Shown piece by piece: positions 4,541-24,882 of a stretch of DNA of 64,000 bases. The stretch comes from Erysipelotrichaceae bacterium (GTDB taxonomy: Bacteria > Bacillota_I > Bacilli_A > RFN20 > CAG-449), in NCBI GenBank assembly GCA_015059045.1, contig SVBD01000002.1, forward strand, positions 62,001-126,000, given 5' to 3'. The stretch's first letter is position 1, and each line of letters begins with the position of its first letter. Under the pieces are notes generated by a model. The model saw only the letters and a program-made list of their open reading frames with translations, made no database searches and was not told the origin of the DNA. Both the position numbers and the translations under genes were made by a program.

Positions 4541-5704
4541 TTATTTACCTAATTGACTACCATGTGGTAACACAGGGTAGAAAGAGAATTGGAATGATAC
4601 GAAACCACCTTTGATATCGTTATTATGGTTAGGATCACTTCCTTCATACCAAGCTGCGATAACATAAGGCACTTCAGTATGAGGAGGAATACTATAAACT
4701 TTATTCTCATGAACTAAAGAGTCATATTCCCAAGTATTGTTTTTGTTATTGAAATGTAAATTTGTACATTTCCAATCTTCATCTTGTTTTCCTTTATTTG
4801 GATTTTTCATTAATGGAACATCTTCTTCATTTGTATATGTTCCAGAAGCAGTAGTAGCGACATATTCTTGAGAATCTTCTTCATGTCCTTGATAAATTAA
4901 TTTATCACCATTTTCTTGAACAATTGATTTAGGTTGAGCAAATACATCAATTGTAAATGATTCACCAGTTTGATCATAATGTCTTCCTTCTACATTGAAG
5001 ATATTTTCTTCATCATGAACTTCCATTAAAGCAAATCTACAAGCTTCTAATGCTCCTTGAGCGTGTCTAGTAATTGTTAATTTAACTGCGAAGAATACTG
5101 TACCTACTTCATATTCAACTCCATCAACAGTGAATGTTTCTTTTTGTGAAGTTAAATTATCTACTCTATTCTTCTTTAATGATACGTCTTCTGTAGAACC
5201 TTCATTATTATTATATAAATAGAACTTACCTGCTAGGAATTGATCTCCATTAGCCGAAGATGTTTGATCTTTTTTAGGTTTATCTGTTTTAACAGTATCT
5301 TCTTGATTAGATCCAACTGACATAATGTAATCAAGCATATTAGTATAGACTCTAGTTTCTCCTGTATCTTGATCAGTATATTCAACAGGAGTTTGTGCAA
5401 TACTTCCTCCATTACCACCAATAGGATTAGTATTACCTCTACCACTTAAGAAGTTAGTAGGGTTACCATCTTCACTACCTTTAAGTTGTAATTCATTACT
5501 ATCATTACTGACACTTACACTACCAGTACCACCTTCGACAAATACTTTATAAGCATTATCTAGAAGAACTGTATTATAGAGGTAATAACCAGAAGTAATT
5601 AATGCGAATAAAAGAACAAACACTGCAATGATAGAAGTTCTTCTTCTCTTTTTCGCATGAGCAGAAGCTTTTCTTTTTGTGTTTAACTCATTTCCATTAT
5701 ACAT
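4541..5704 (-). CDS. Membrane-anchored surface protein of the SipW operon
   Basis: A 387-residue protein. A basic N-terminus (KRKASAHAKKRRR) precedes one helix (about residues 25-45), giving a type II anchor or uncleaved signal. A Gly/Asn/Ser-rich linker follows, then an extracellular domain (about 150-387). The stretch HTEVPYVIAAWYEGSDPNH near the C-terminus resembles the end of SipW-substrate beta domains, in which a conserved W.EG turn is common. That hint and the neighbours suggest an accessory or anchor subunit for the TasA-like protein. I do not recognise a named family. It has a clear GGAGGTAAATCACC-ATG start and lies 38 bp from the EAL-like gene. Confidence 0.6.
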   Translation of the reverse strand: MYNGNELNTKRKASAHAKKRRRTSIIAVFVLLFALITSGYYLYNTVLLDNAYKVFVEGGTGSVSVSNDSNELQLKGSEDGNPTNFLSGRGNTNPIGGNGGSIAQTPVEYTDQDTGETRVYTNMLDYIMSVGSNQEDTVKTDKPKKDQTSSANGDQFLAGKFYLYNNNEGSTEDVSLKKNRVDNLTSQKETFTVDGVEYEVGTVFFAVKLTITRHAQGALEACRFALMEVHDEENIFNVEGRHYDQTGESFTIDVFAQPKSIVQENGDKLIYQGHEEDSQEYVATTASGTYTNEEDVPLMKNPNKGKQDEDWKCTNLHFNNKNNTWEYDSLVHENKVYSIPPHTEVPYVIAAWYEGSDPNHNNDIKGGFVSFQFSFYPVLPHGSQLGK

Positions 5705-7054: not shown

Positions 7055-8053
7055 CTAGATTATATCCCTATTATTTTTAACTAAATACTCTAATATCTGA
7101 ACCATATTACTCGCTGCACCTTTTCTTAAATTATCACTTACTACATATAGTAATAACCCTTTAGGGTTATTTAATGATTTTCTAATTCTTCCTATATAAA
7201 CTAAATCATTATTTAAAGCTTTCTCTCCTACTGGATAGATATGATTTTTTAAATCATCTAGTAAAATTATACTTTTATTTTCTAAATACTTACTTTTTAA
7301 TAAGTTTAAATCTAATTCTTTACTAGTTTCTAAATATATACTTACTGCATGAGTTCTTAAAAGTGGAACTCTTACACAAGTTGCATTAATATCAATATCA
7401 TTATCCTTTAAGATTTTTTTAGTTTCTTCTACCATTTTCACTTCTTCTTTAGTGAAGTTATTATCAAGTGGATTATCAATTTCTGGAATTAAGGATTCAG
7501 TAATTAAATATGGAAAGAAATGGTTTTTTTGATTAAGTAAAGAAGAATAATAATCTTTAATCCCTTTTACTCCTGCTCCTGATACTGCCTGATACGTAGA
7601 ATAAATTATCTTATTAATTCCAAATAGGTCATGTATTGGTTTTAAAGCCACTAGAGATTGAATTGTAGAACAATTTGGATTAGATATTAACTTACTATCT
7701 TTAATGTCCTCTAAATTGATTTCTGGAACAATTAAAGGAACATCATTATTCATTCTAAAAAAGGAAGAATTATCAATGACGATACATTTTGATTTTAAAG
7801 CCAAAGGAACATACTTTTTAGATACGCTTGCACTTGTGCAAAAGAAAACATAATCTAATGATTCAAAAGAGTGATCATCAATAGTTTCTATTTGATACTT
7901 CTGATTTTTAAAAGTGATAAATTTACCTTTACTTTTTTCACTTGCGAACAACCTTAATTCTCCAATATTAAAATTTGATTTCTCTAAAATCTCTAATAAT
8001 ACACTACCAACTAGACCGGTAGAACCAACAATTCCTAATTTAATTTTTTTCAT
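7055..8053 (-). CDS. asd: Aspartate-semialdehyde dehydrogenase
   Basis: A 332-residue enzyme that reduces beta-aspartyl phosphate to aspartate semialdehyde with NADPH, the branch point to lysine/diaminopimelate, threonine and methionine. The N-terminal Rossmann motif is GIVGSTGLVGS. The catalytic cysteine is in ISNPNCSTIQ, and TYQAVSGAG and a C-terminal VRVPLLRTHA (substrate-binding R and catalytic H) are present. The length is normal. It stands alone, without lysC or dapA next to it. The start has no clear Shine-Dalgarno sequence, unlike nearly every neighbour. It is transcribed toward the EAL operon and no terminator was seen after it. Confidence 0.93.
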   Translation of the reverse strand: MKKIKLGIVGSTGLVGSVLLEILEKSNFNIGELRLFASEKSKGKFITFKNQKYQIETIDDHSFESLDYVFFCTSASVSKKYVPLALKSKCIVIDNSSFFRMNNDVPLIVPEINLEDIKDSKLISNPNCSTIQSLVALKPIHDLFGINKIIYSTYQAVSGAGVKGIKDYYSSLLNQKNHFFPYLITESLIPEIDNPLDNNFTKEEVKMVEETKKILKDNDIDINATCVRVPLLRTHAVSIYLETSKELDLNLLKSKYLENKSIILLDDLKNHIYPVGEKALNNDLVYIGRIRKSLNNPKGLLLYVVSDNLRKGAASNMVQILEYLVKNNRDII

Positions 8054-8083
8054 ATCAATTAATGATATGCATTACTATCAAAC

Positions 8084-22084: not shown

Positions 22085-22297
22085 AACAAATTCCCCACTT
22101 AAAATTAATAATTTTATATTCTAAAGATATCTTAACATATAAATTATATAAATACTTTTTTTAAAATGAATTTTTTTAATTTTCTTTGATTATCAACAAT
22201 TAAATTAATAAAAACCTAGTTGCAATAAAATATAAATATATTTACTTTCACTATAATTATTTTATTTCATATAATACCTTGTATTATGGAGATATTT
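22085..22297. promoter_or_regulatory. Divergent intergenic region before the NMT1-type lipoprotein
   Basis: About 213 bp, very AT-rich. A TATAAT at 22252-22257 is a likely -10 for the lipoprotein gene, but its -35 is poor. The inverted repeat ATAATAC-CTT-GTATTAT (22271-22287) lies directly before the GGAGATATTT ribosome site. I looked for a TPP riboswitch, because of the NMT1/THI5 family, and did not find its conserved core. Confidence 0.45.
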
Positions 22298-23317
22298 ATG
22301 AAATTTAAATTTATTAAAAAACTATTATTACTTCCTTTTATTTTAGGAATATTACCTTTAGGTAGCTGTAGTAGAAACGAAAATAAGCTAACCATTGCAG
22401 AAGTAACACATAGCGTTTTTTACGCTCCAATGTATGTGGCTAAAAATAAAGGATACTTTGATGAAGTTGGTTTAGAAGTAGACATCATCACCACTCCTGG
22501 TGCAGATAAAGTTATGGCGGCTCTTCTTTCCAAAGATGCTCAAATTGGATTAATGGGTCCAGAAGCAACTGTTTATGTATATCAAAACGGACAAAAGGAT
22601 TACGCAATTAACTTTGCTCAGTTAACTCAAAAAGATGGATCCTTCCTTTTAGGAAGAGATAAAGTAGATACTTTTTCTTACGACATATTAAAAGGTAAAA
22701 CTATAATAGGTGGAAGAAAAGGTGGAATGCCTGAAATGACTCTTGAATATGTATTAAAGAAAAATGGCTTAACAATTACTCAAAATGGTGAAAATCCAGA
22801 TGCAGATGTAAATATTAGAACCGATGTAAGTTTTGATGCAACTACAGGAGTTTTTGTCGCTGGTGAATCAGATTTTTGCACTGCTTTTGAACCAGTTGGA
22901 ACTCAAATTGAAAAACAAGGAAAAGGATATATTATCGCTTCGCTTGGAGAACTACTAAATGAAGAAGTTCCTTATACATGTTTTTCTTCACTTAAATCTT
23001 ATTTAAATAAAAATGAAGACAAATTAACTAGATTTACTAAGGCAATAATTAAAGGATTAGATTATGTTAATAACAATAAACCAGAAGATATTGCTTCTTA
23101 CTTACAAAAAGACTTTTCTTCATCAAGTAATGAAGAATTAATTAATGTAATTAATAACTATAAAAAAATTAAAGCTTGGCCGATAGAAATGAACTTCACG
23201 AAGAAAAGCTTTGATAAATTAATTGATATTGTAAAAGAGGCTAACGAACTTGAAAAAGATGTCGTTGTTCCATATGAAAAACTAGTTATCAATCAAATAA
23301 TTAATACCGCTAAATAA
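22298..23317 (+). CDS. NMT1/THI5-type substrate-binding lipoprotein
   Basis: A 339-residue lipoprotein. The signal KKLLLLPFILGILPLGSC gives a lipobox cysteine. The body starts LTIAEVTHSVFYAPMYVAKNKGYFDEVGLEVDI, a hallmark of the NMT1/THI5-like family (thiamin precursor, nitrate or sulfonate importers). Further family features are GADKVMAALLSKDAQIGLMGPEA and TVFVAG-type segments. The track start (22286) contains the ribosome site inside its first codons; ATG 22298, six bases after GGAGAT, is the real start. No permease or ATPase is adjacent. The final 65 bases are duplicated at 24714-24778, beyond an inserted two-gene cassette. Confidence 0.85.
   Translation: MKFKFIKKLLLLPFILGILPLGSCSRNENKLTIAEVTHSVFYAPMYVAKNKGYFDEVGLEVDIITTPGADKVMAALLSKDAQIGLMGPEATVYVYQNGQKDYAINFAQLTQKDGSFLLGRDKVDTFSYDILKGKTIIGGRKGGMPEMTLEYVLKKNGLTITQNGENPDADVNIRTDVSFDATTGVFVAGESDFCTAFEPVGTQIEKQGKGYIIASLGELLNEEVPYTCFSSLKSYLNKNEDKLTRFTKAIIKGLDYVNNNKPEDIASYLQKDFSSSSNEELINVINNYKKIKAWPIEMNFTKKSFDKLIDIVKEANELEKDVVVPYEKLVINQIINTAK
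23253..23317 (+). repeat. Direct repeat copy 1: 3' end of the lipoprotein gene
   Basis: The last 65 bases of the lipoprotein gene, from AAAAAGATGTCG to TAAATAA, recur at 24714-24778 with 63/65 identity. Both differences fall on third codon positions (GTT/GTC and ATC/ATT), so both copies encode the same residues. Confidence 0.95.
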
Positions 23318-23346
23318 AATGCTGGAACTTCCTCCAGCATTTTTAA
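23315..23346. terminator. Bidirectional terminator inside the cassette
   Basis: AAATGCTGGA-ACTTCC-TCCAGCATTT with A- and T-runs on either side. It serves both the lipoprotein gene (plus) and the nucleotidyltransferase gene (minus). Since it lies between the repeat copy and the cassette genes, it came with the insertion. Confidence 0.88.
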
Positions 23347-24038
23347 TCATTTTTTATTTTATTCAGAATATACTCAATATTATCTTCTGTTAAAAACCTT
23401 ATATCTTCATCGTTTTCTAGAATTCTATCCCTATTTATTTTTTCTATTTCGTTTATAGAAAAATAATCAAATTCTTTATCTTTTAAGCACTTTAATAATA
23501 AATCATAAGCTTCTTTTTTTATTAAATCAAATGTTCCATACAATTCAATAATTGCTCTATCAATCTCTTCAATTCCAATTATTCTTTTTTTACGAATTTC
23601 GTTTACTATTCCTATTATATCTGATAAATCATTTTTATATTTTCTGCCGGAGACAAGTTTCATTGCTATTAAATATTCGTCCTTAATAGTTCTTATTTTT
23701 AATGTTCCATTACCAAAAGATTTATAAAATGATGAATATTGAATAAGCTTATCACTATATGATTTTGTTAATTTAAAATCAGTGTTAATCCAATCTGATG
23801 GAAGTGAATACTTTTTCGCAACAATATCAATTGCATCATTCATCAAAATATTATCGACATCAATTACATCAATATCACTAGTCGAATTTCTAAAATCATA
23901 ATTTACAAGTATCGATGCCCCTCCTACTAAAATTAATTCATATGAGACATTATTTTTCCTATTATTCTTCCTTATAATTTTAGTTAGTTCTTTTAAATAA
24001 ATATCTAAATCTGATTTATTCATCAATTTATATGACAT
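23343..24038 (-). CDS. Nucleotidyltransferase-like protein (DUF6036/AbiEii-type toxin candidate)
   Basis: A 231-residue protein with the minimal nucleotidyltransferase signature ILVGGASILVNYDFRNSTSDIDVID, that is GG...S followed by D-x-D. Later YLIAMKLVSGRKYKNDLSDIIGIV is typical of DUF6036 and AbiEii-related proteins. In known pairs such enzymes modify tRNA or other targets and are held in check by an HTH partner. Here the upstream HTH gene overlaps it by 11 bases, which supports a toxin-antitoxin reading. Toxicity itself is inferred. It ends at a bidirectional terminator. Confidence 0.72.
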   Translation of the reverse strand: MSYKLMNKSDLDIYLKELTKIIRKNNRKNNVSYELILVGGASILVNYDFRNSTSDIDVIDVDNILMNDAIDIVAKKYSLPSDWINTDFKLTKSYSDKLIQYSSFYKSFGNGTLKIRTIKDEYLIAMKLVSGRKYKNDLSDIIGIVNEIRKKRIIGIEEIDRAIIELYGTFDLIKKEAYDLLLKCLKDKEFDYFSINEIEKINRDRILENDEDIRFLTEDNIEYILNKIKND

Positions 24039-24609
24039 TTTCTACCTCCGATTCAACGATGTTATGAATTAAAAATTCTTTTCTACATTCATTAAAGATC
24101 TTTGTTATATTAATTTGTTTATTTTTTAGCAAAAGAAAAATGCTTTCTGAAACATAGAGTTTATTTAATTTTCTCTTCCTTATATCTTCATATTTTTTAA
24201 CAAAAGGTAAATTATTTTTTAAACATATATAATCAATAAACGATAATAGGTAAAGAGCTTTATCATATTCTTTACTATTAATTAAATTTTCAATTTCCAT
24301 ATTAAGCAAATATTTTTTTAAAAAATTTGAATCACGTAATCTTTTATACTCATGACAAATTTCACTTTTATATAAATCAAATTCTCTATCAAAAGTAATA
24401 TAGCATAATTTTTTATAAGATAATATTTCATACAATTCATCAATAGACATGTTTAAAGAAGAAGCTATATTTTTAATAGTTAAAATAGAGCATTTATCGA
24501 TATTTATTTTTTCATTATAAATATCTGATAATGTCGAATGACTAATAGAACTTTTCTTTTCTAAACTATATAAAGATATATTCATGTTACTCAATATAAC
24601 TCTTAACAT
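24028..24609 (-). CDS. HTH regulator / antitoxin candidate
   Basis: A 193-residue protein with an N-terminal XRE-type helix-turn-helix (NISLYSLEKKSSISHSTLSDIYNEKINIDKCSILTIKNIASSLNMSIDELYE) and a helical C-terminal half (residues about 85-193). The track starts at 24684. That region, however, contains a TATAAT and the palindrome GTCGCTGTAGCGAC and must be promoter. ATG 24609, directly behind AAGGAGAGTAGT, is the true start. It overlaps the nucleotidyltransferase gene by 11 bases. Autorepression through the palindrome is likely. Confidence 0.75.
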   Translation of the reverse strand: MLRVILSNMNISLYSLEKKSSISHSTLSDIYNEKINIDKCSILTIKNIASSLNMSIDELYEILSYKKLCYITFDREFDLYKSEICHEYKRLRDSNFLKKYLLNMEIENLINSKEYDKALYLLSFIDYICLKNNLPFVKKYEDIRKRKLNKLYVSESIFLLLKNKQINITKIFNECRKEFLIHNIVESEVENVI

Positions 24610-24629
24610 ACTACTCTCCTTATCTATAT

Positions 24630-24643
24630 GTCGCTGTAGCGAC
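24630..24643 (-). promoter_or_regulatory. Palindromic operator of the cassette
   Basis: GTCGCTGTAGCGAC is a perfect, locally GC-rich palindrome just after the predicted start site and before the AAGGAG of the HTH gene. It is the natural candidate for the site bound by the HTH protein. Confidence 0.65.
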
Positions 24644-24651
24644 CTATTAAT

Positions 24652-24681
24652 ATTATATTCTAAAAGATGATTGATATTCAA
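24652..24681 (-). promoter_or_regulatory. Promoter of the HTH/nucleotidyltransferase pair
   Basis: TTGAAT (24681-24676), 18 bp and TATAAT (24657-24652) on the minus strand. The predicted start, near 24645, is next to the palindrome. Confidence 0.6.
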
Positions 24682-24713
24682 CATTTTAAATTAATTATAA
24701 TTATTAACATCTA

Positions 24714-24778
24714 AAAAAGATGTCGTTGTTCCATATGAAAAACTAGTCATTAATCAAATAATTAATACCGCTAAATAA
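24714..24778 (+). repeat. Direct repeat copy 2: orphan 3' end of the lipoprotein gene
   Basis: A 65-base copy of the lipoprotein gene end, with stop codon, that is not joined to any gene. It marks the far end of the two-gene cassette. Two synonymous differences from copy 1 show it evolved as coding sequence before the insertion. Confidence 0.93.
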
Positions 24779-24826: not shown

Positions 24827-24856
24827 TTGAAAGATGCCGAAAACATACGATATAAT
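24827..24856 (+). promoter_or_regulatory. Promoter of the DUF975 gene
   Basis: TTGAAA (24827-24832), 18 bp and TATAAT (24851-24856), 27 bases before ATG 24883 with its GGAGGAAAAATTT site. Confidence 0.7.
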
Positions 24857-24882
24857 TAAAATATATATAGGAGGAAAAATTT

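Follow-up and report, generated by a model that had tools for sequence, protein, structure and literature searches.

A repeated lipoprotein gene end around an integrase-free HTH/nucleotidyltransferase gene pair: structure, age and possible origin

Introduction

How toxin-antitoxin pairs move without a visible mobile element is a long-standing question, and the locus described here raises it in compact form: two genes resembling such a pair lie between two copies of the end of a lipoprotein gene, in a window (the whole stretch of DNA analysed, 64,000 nucleotides) belonging to a genome of 1.44 Mb (G000). What duplicated the gene end, and did the two-gene cassette bring the duplication with it? 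A first-pass annotation had proposed that the incoming element carried its own version of the gene end and rebuilt the gene on entry, in the manner of integrases that use gene ends as attachment sites.

Structure of the locus

The features of the locus are collected in Table 1. The 65-nt direct repeat shows an identity of 63/65, the copies differing by T/C at repeat position 35 and by C/T at position 38; both differences fall on third codon positions and are silent, so that the repeat, as first described, has been confirmed by repeat search and by codon position. The chance that both changes are silent under random mutation is 0.05, or 0.12 if transitions only are considered, which is a weak hint that the second copy was recently a real gene end. 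The lipoprotein gene, whose 3' end is duplicated, is itself intact and has been matched in 19 other related genomes (57 searched).

Table 1. Coordinates, strand and supporting evidence of the features at the lipoprotein gene end (positions of the window)
Feature	Position	Strand	Evidence
Lipoprotein gene, 343 aa, NMT1/THI5-like (SsuA-type) ABC-transporter substrate-binding protein	22286..23317	+	PF09084 E=4e-19
Repeat copy 1: 65 bp at the end of the intact lipoprotein gene, including the TAA stop	23253..23317	+	repeat search
Two-way intrinsic terminator, common to the lipoprotein and NT genes, which lie tail to tail	23316..23343	.	folding
DUF6036 nucleotidyltransferase (NT), 231 aa, putative toxin	23343..24038	-	PF19502 E=7.5e-10; model pLDDT 85.5
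HTH protein, 193 aa, Cro/C1-type N-terminal and helical C-terminal domain; putative antitoxin/autorepressor	24028..24609	-	PF13443 E=2.7e-8; pLDDT 88.5
Predicted palindromic operator GTCGCTGTAGCGAC, directly downstream of the -10 box of the cassette promoter	24630..24643	.	
Cassette right end, from operator to copy 2; A-rich tail runs on into the repeat	24644..24713	.	
HTH-NT promoter-like site TTGAAT-18-TATAAT	24652..24681	-	consensus match only; total such sites at shuffle level
Repeat copy 2: 65-bp lipoprotein gene end with two silent differences, no terminator behind	24714..24778	+	
Promoter-like site TTGAAA-18-TATAAT and DUF975 membrane-protein gene (24883-25596), now behind copy 2	24827..25596	+	

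A search with the 65-bp sequence found no third copy in the whole of G000, while the scans for repeats, operators and motifs covered 1.04 Mb of this genome (72%). In this sequence, taken regardless of the HTH family, repeats of at least 35 bp and at least 85% identity with a spacing of 0.2-8 kb were confined, apart from a KilA-N terminator pair described below, to internal repeats of low-complexity surface proteins; the gene-by-gene assignment to surface proteins covers contigs C1, C8 and C17, and C5 contains one more cluster of such repeats. Since no third copy exists and comparable repeats are of these kinds, the cassette repeat is not due to chance, and a chance origin was rejected. A decayed tandem lipoprotein gene, named in the first-pass annotation as one case that would overturn its reading, has been discarded as well: the similarity of copy 2 to the lipoprotein gene is confined to the 65 bp (residues 323-343) and stops there.

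Only two genes lie between the repeat copies, encoding a DUF6036 nucleotidyltransferase (NT) and a Cro/C1-type HTH protein. The former has a pol-beta-type core, GG-x14-D-x-D, in which G39, G40, D55 and D57 are invariant across nine aligned sequences. The HTH gene probably starts at 24609, and not at the first ATG at 24684, as a Shine-Dalgarno sequence stands in front of this start and the relatives begin at the matching methionine. The terminator shared with the lipoprotein gene has folding z values of -6.3 and -4.8, strong on both strands, and a similar terminator is found at the same place behind the lipoprotein gene of a same-genus genome, G003. The earlier description of an integrase-free cassette of two genes, placed beside a gene end that has stayed intact, is supported.

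The close relatives examined share the operator pattern GTCGS-N4-SCGAC in front of their HTH gene, G109 departing from it at a single base, and the operator sequence of the window occurs a single time in 1.04 Mb of G000. The position of the palindrome, upstream of the HTH start and following a -10-like box, together with this single occurrence, would fit repression by the HTH protein of its own operon. The same palindrome also precedes HTH genes without an NT partner. Such genes have been observed upstream of an infC-rpmI-rplT-like cluster (L092, L093, L096) and of a nusG-like gene (L094), these neighbours being read from the sequence, and may possibly be orphan antitoxins or regulators.

Gene order and operator make a toxin-antitoxin role for the pair likely, and a defence function is plausible. 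No known defence family was recognised, neither gene having a PADLOC match; furthermore, neither protein matches the AbiEii or AbiEi families in Pfam or PADLOC, and a PDB structure search gave no confident relative of either except for the HTH domain. A phage or plasmid home for the NT was also rejected, given no match in phages and two weak matches in plasmids. One viral contig carries an HTH-NT pair at 41%, and an alignment search of viral contigs with the HTH protein yielded nothing.

At its right end, the cassette can be aligned with that of G003 only as far as about 24658. The A-rich stretch there is possibly a microhomology, which at the join consists of a run of A plus GATG and nothing more. 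The DUF975 gene behind copy 2 has no orthologue at the corresponding place in the relatives, its best in-family match being at 44%.

Age of the cassette and of the repeat

The HTH-NT pair is present in one of the seven same-genus genomes besides that of the window, namely G003, and the lipoprotein gene has been retained by most of the seven. A comparison of relatives, as proposed in the first-pass annotation, thus shows the cassette to be missing in most same-genus genomes; those relatives that lack it at the window locus also lack the DUF975 neighbour. Behind its orthologous lipoprotein gene, and in unchanged orientation, G003 has both the HTH gene (75%) and, in truncated form, the NT gene (80%). 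An AbiLi/RloA-like AAA ATPase gene and two small genes replace the 3' half of this NT gene, after codon 110 (L070, G003:C17, 7473-10262).

The synonymous divergence between G000 and G003 amounts to 1.21 for the lipoprotein gene and 0.87 for the HTH gene, and is saturated for the NT gene. As the G003 copy of the cassette is as diverged as the lipoprotein gene, the cassette was probably already downstream of this gene when the lineages of the two species separated. The repeat copies, in contrast to this saturated or high synonymous divergence, differ at two sites, so that the repeat is much younger than the association. It therefore records something that happened later at the cassette's right end, or else a loss and recent return, and is not the scar of the first insertion; the view of the repeat as the mark of the cassette's first arrival is not supported.

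Where synteny holds, the 3' end of the lipoprotein gene faces addA over a variable gap. This gap measures about 0.7 kb in G013 and G016, two genomes of the same family, and contains 5.5 kb of metabolic genes in G004 and acyltransferase- and kinase-like genes in G005 (labels read from sequence); G007 has an AbiE pair two genes further down from the lipoprotein gene. No recognised integrase was found among the genes adjoining the lipoprotein gene end in the relatives compared. As a separate observation, the orthologue in G010 (C3, about 14923-43486; L080/L020, L021) is split in two, the parts lying ~28.5 kb apart, and a resolvase-like gene adjoins the right junction.

Recurrence at other gene ends

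Related cassettes have been found between copies of other gene ends in further uncultured bacteria. In the distant genome G109, an HTH-NT pair has a complete tRNA-Val(gac) gene and its terminator on one side and, on the other, a second copy of the 3' part of this tRNA and the terminator, 105 bp long (92%). The tRNA-Val/terminator region is 98% identical between G109 and G141, and the latter shows an empty junction, in which tRNA-Val and terminator are followed by a TTAGCACTC promoter without HTH-NT; the flank behind the second copy in G109 matches this TTAGCACTC-type promoter. Thus, the search for empty sites called for at the outset has been borne out for this homologous cassette, and the search for other cargo between the same repeats has also been answered at the tRNA-Val site, since in G141 copies of the tRNA end, the terminator and the promoter flank a lipoprotein gene. 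The lipoprotein-gene promoters behind tRNA-Val contain a CIRCE-like inverted repeat with the TTAGCACTC sequence (L204, G141:C12, 3582-3626 and 5270-5314; L082, 10465-10510).

In G141 the rplQ terminator is also present twice, as 49-bp copies (92%) that enclose an HTH gene of the family; at this site its relatives G200 and G109 show one terminator only, with another gene behind it. Moreover, in G000 itself (contig C21, L251, 7162-8180) a lone KilA-N gene (7254-8078) is flanked by 43-bp copies (98%) of the terminator belonging to the five-tRNA operon of tRNA-Leu(taa), and is the second integrase-free cassette of this kind in the window's genome. The repeats thus measure 65, 105, 49 and 43 bp, each of a different gene-end sequence; three of the five instances come from one other family. 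In 497 kb comprising the window and related loci, which were partly picked for the HTH family, the only direct repeats of at least 40 bp and at least 90% identity with 0.3-4 kb spacing were three that flank genes of this family. Longer and less similar repeats, between paralogous neighbouring genes, occur in L085, L087, L113 and L114.

The viral and more distant HTH-NT loci checked (L139-L154 left out) have no such repeat beside the cassette, which indicates that the gene-end repeat is not constant in the HTH-NT family. That related cassettes stand between copies of different gene ends suggests that small cassettes can enter by duplicating the tail of a gene, without an enzyme of their own.

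Two further observations concern G109. The sequence left of its HTH gene recurs directly upstream of two other toxin/defence modules (L205, G109:C20, 4903-4957 and 7326-7411), a Polbeta nucleotidyltransferase/HepT-like pair and a DUF1016/nucleotidyltransferase pair, and one copy includes part of the terminator. It is possibly a shared cassette end or a promoter; a shared cassette end was rejected for the window, since 1.04 Mb of G000 yielded no convincing second copy of the corresponding sequence. In another contig (L241, G109:C11), a 168-bp repeat (92%; 435-602 and 5432-5598) resembling the 5' end of a nucleotide-sugar dehydrogenase gene flanks a 4.8-kb block with a restriction-endonuclease-like gene.

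Origin of the repeat

The best explanation for the window, to which we give an even chance of being correct, is a recent exchange between a cassette-bearing and a cassette-free allele, homologous at one end and illegitimate at the other. Recombination between alleles is favoured here because the association is old and the repeat copies have only two differences, both silent. An autoregulated, toxin-antitoxin-like HTH-NT pair would have occupied the variable gap downstream of the lipoprotein gene for long, though with interruptions, and a recent additive recombination at the end of this gene would have left the 65-bp repeat as its footprint. We infer the route and the donor: the cassette-bearing allele would have had the order lipoprotein gene, terminator, NT and HTH, and the cassette-free allele the lipoprotein gene followed by the DUF975 gene. 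The left join would result from homologous exchange within the lipoprotein gene, and the right join from an illegitimate event at the A-rich stretch, 65 bp before the gene end of the other allele. An intact lipoprotein gene would thus be rebuilt with the cassette behind it, and the old gene end would remain as copy 2.

Integration with one homologous and one illegitimate end is known in competent bacteria and in E. coli conjugation (PMC3240628). Transformation as the route is without support in G000, since motifs of neither DprA nor ComEC turned up in the 72% of the genome scanned, a weak test. Against the exchange of alleles stands the fact that the junction between the lipoprotein and DUF975 genes occurs in none of the relatives compared, where DUF975 has no orthologue at this place.

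The same outcome recurs in relatives at other gene ends, and for this reason small cassettes of toxin, defence or phage type may enter gene ends with long and variable duplications and without a recombinase of their own. In its stricter form, which we regard as rather unlikely for the window, the cassette would be the moving unit and a more specific process would duplicate about 40-105 bp of the target on entry, as for restriction-modification (RM) systems. Long, variable, target-derived repeats do flank cassettes of 0.8-1.7 kb at four or more unrelated gene ends, and the G109 cassette has its empty junction in G141, but the cassettes have neither common ends nor a candidate enzyme; moreover, the association in the window is older than the repeat, which could be the original scar only if the cassette had left and returned.

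An integrase would be accommodated by the remnant of an integrated mobile element (CIME): an IME or phage satellite would have used the gene end as attB and later lost its tyrosine integrase, the repeats being attL and attR. Gene-end targeting, an intact gene and att sites without integrase are all known of tyrosine-integrase elements and CIMEs (PMC5704250), and distant relatives of the cassette adjoin a phage-type integrase (L112) or have a resolvase-like gene nearby (L111). This origin is nevertheless improbable. The repeat differs at each site, so a separate integrase would be needed for each, every element having decayed to one or two genes; a 105-bp repeat containing a terminator would be an unusual att core; and G000 has no third copy of the 65 bp. 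The tyrosine recombinases detected in 72% of G000 by motif scan, again a weak test, are two only, both of XerC/XerD size. An integrase att site as sole explanation was consequently rejected, and a single attachment site used by an integrase is not supported; as both the sequence and the length of the repeat differ each time, a long variable target duplication fits better than one integrase.

Finally, a local duplication, in which an error of replication or repair copied the 65-bp gene end past a resident, unmoved cassette, would agree with a cassette that predates the repeat, but is very improbable, for it leaves unexplained both the repeats around such cassettes at several unrelated loci, always at a gene end or terminator, and the empty junction of G141.

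Beyond the window, the exchange of alleles preferred here may be set beside a broader and quite improbable proposal, that very small mobile cassettes without an integrase (toxin-antitoxin, KilA-N and surface-protein genes) form a class of their own in these bacteria, and that a dedicated process would insert them preferentially behind terminators and gene ends with a target duplication of 40-105 bp, the HTH/DUF6036 pair being one of them. Their search could use a cheap signal, namely two copies of a gene end or terminator within about 2 kb of each other.

Comparison with known systems

AbiE and MenAT consist of two overlapping genes, with the DNA-binding partner first and a pol-beta-type nucleotidyltransferase second, and with likely autoregulation at an operator. 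Both are nucleotidyltransferase toxin-antitoxin systems; they are the subject of PMC3985639 and PMC10435456. The cassette resembles them in its overlapping HTH and NT genes, in that order, in the pol-beta-type core and in the predicted operator, but its NT belongs to DUF6036 and not to the AbiEii family, and the partner is a Cro/C1 HTH protein which is not AbiEi-like and whose C-terminal domain is unassigned, with no confident fold match in the PDB.

The minimal mobile elements of Neisseria are variable genes between conserved neighbours, without mobility genes. The same holds for the locus studied here, where, unlike in those elements, a gene end stands in duplicate around the insert.

Tyrosine-integrase elements target the 3' ends of tRNA and housekeeping genes, leaving the gene intact between repeats of 8-60 bp, and in CIMEs the att sites are kept and the integrase is absent (PMC5704250). 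Here, too, the direct repeats come from the 3' end of a gene, whether for a tRNA or a protein, the gene stays intact and, as in CIMEs, there is no integrase; the cassettes differ in having no common att site, no relics of integrase or relaxase, and two genes only.

The insertion of RM systems with long (order of 100 bp) and variable target duplications has been attributed to Nobusato et al. 2000 and Furuta et al. 2010 in the passages of PMC3874152 and PMC3031569 that cite them. Our cassettes differ in their cargo, an HTH/nucleotidyltransferase pair in place of a restriction-modification system, in their targets, which are all gene 3' ends or terminators, and, in the window, in a repeat that is younger than the association of cassette and gene. 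They agree with the RM insertions in the small, selfish-type gene pair, in the lack of a recombinase, in the long, variable direct repeats derived from the target and, for G109, in the empty site of a relative. Thus, the kind of long-duplication scar known for RM systems is met here around a nucleotidyltransferase/HTH pair, at unrelated gene ends and with one empty junction, which makes the question of how such pairs move testable in another lineage.
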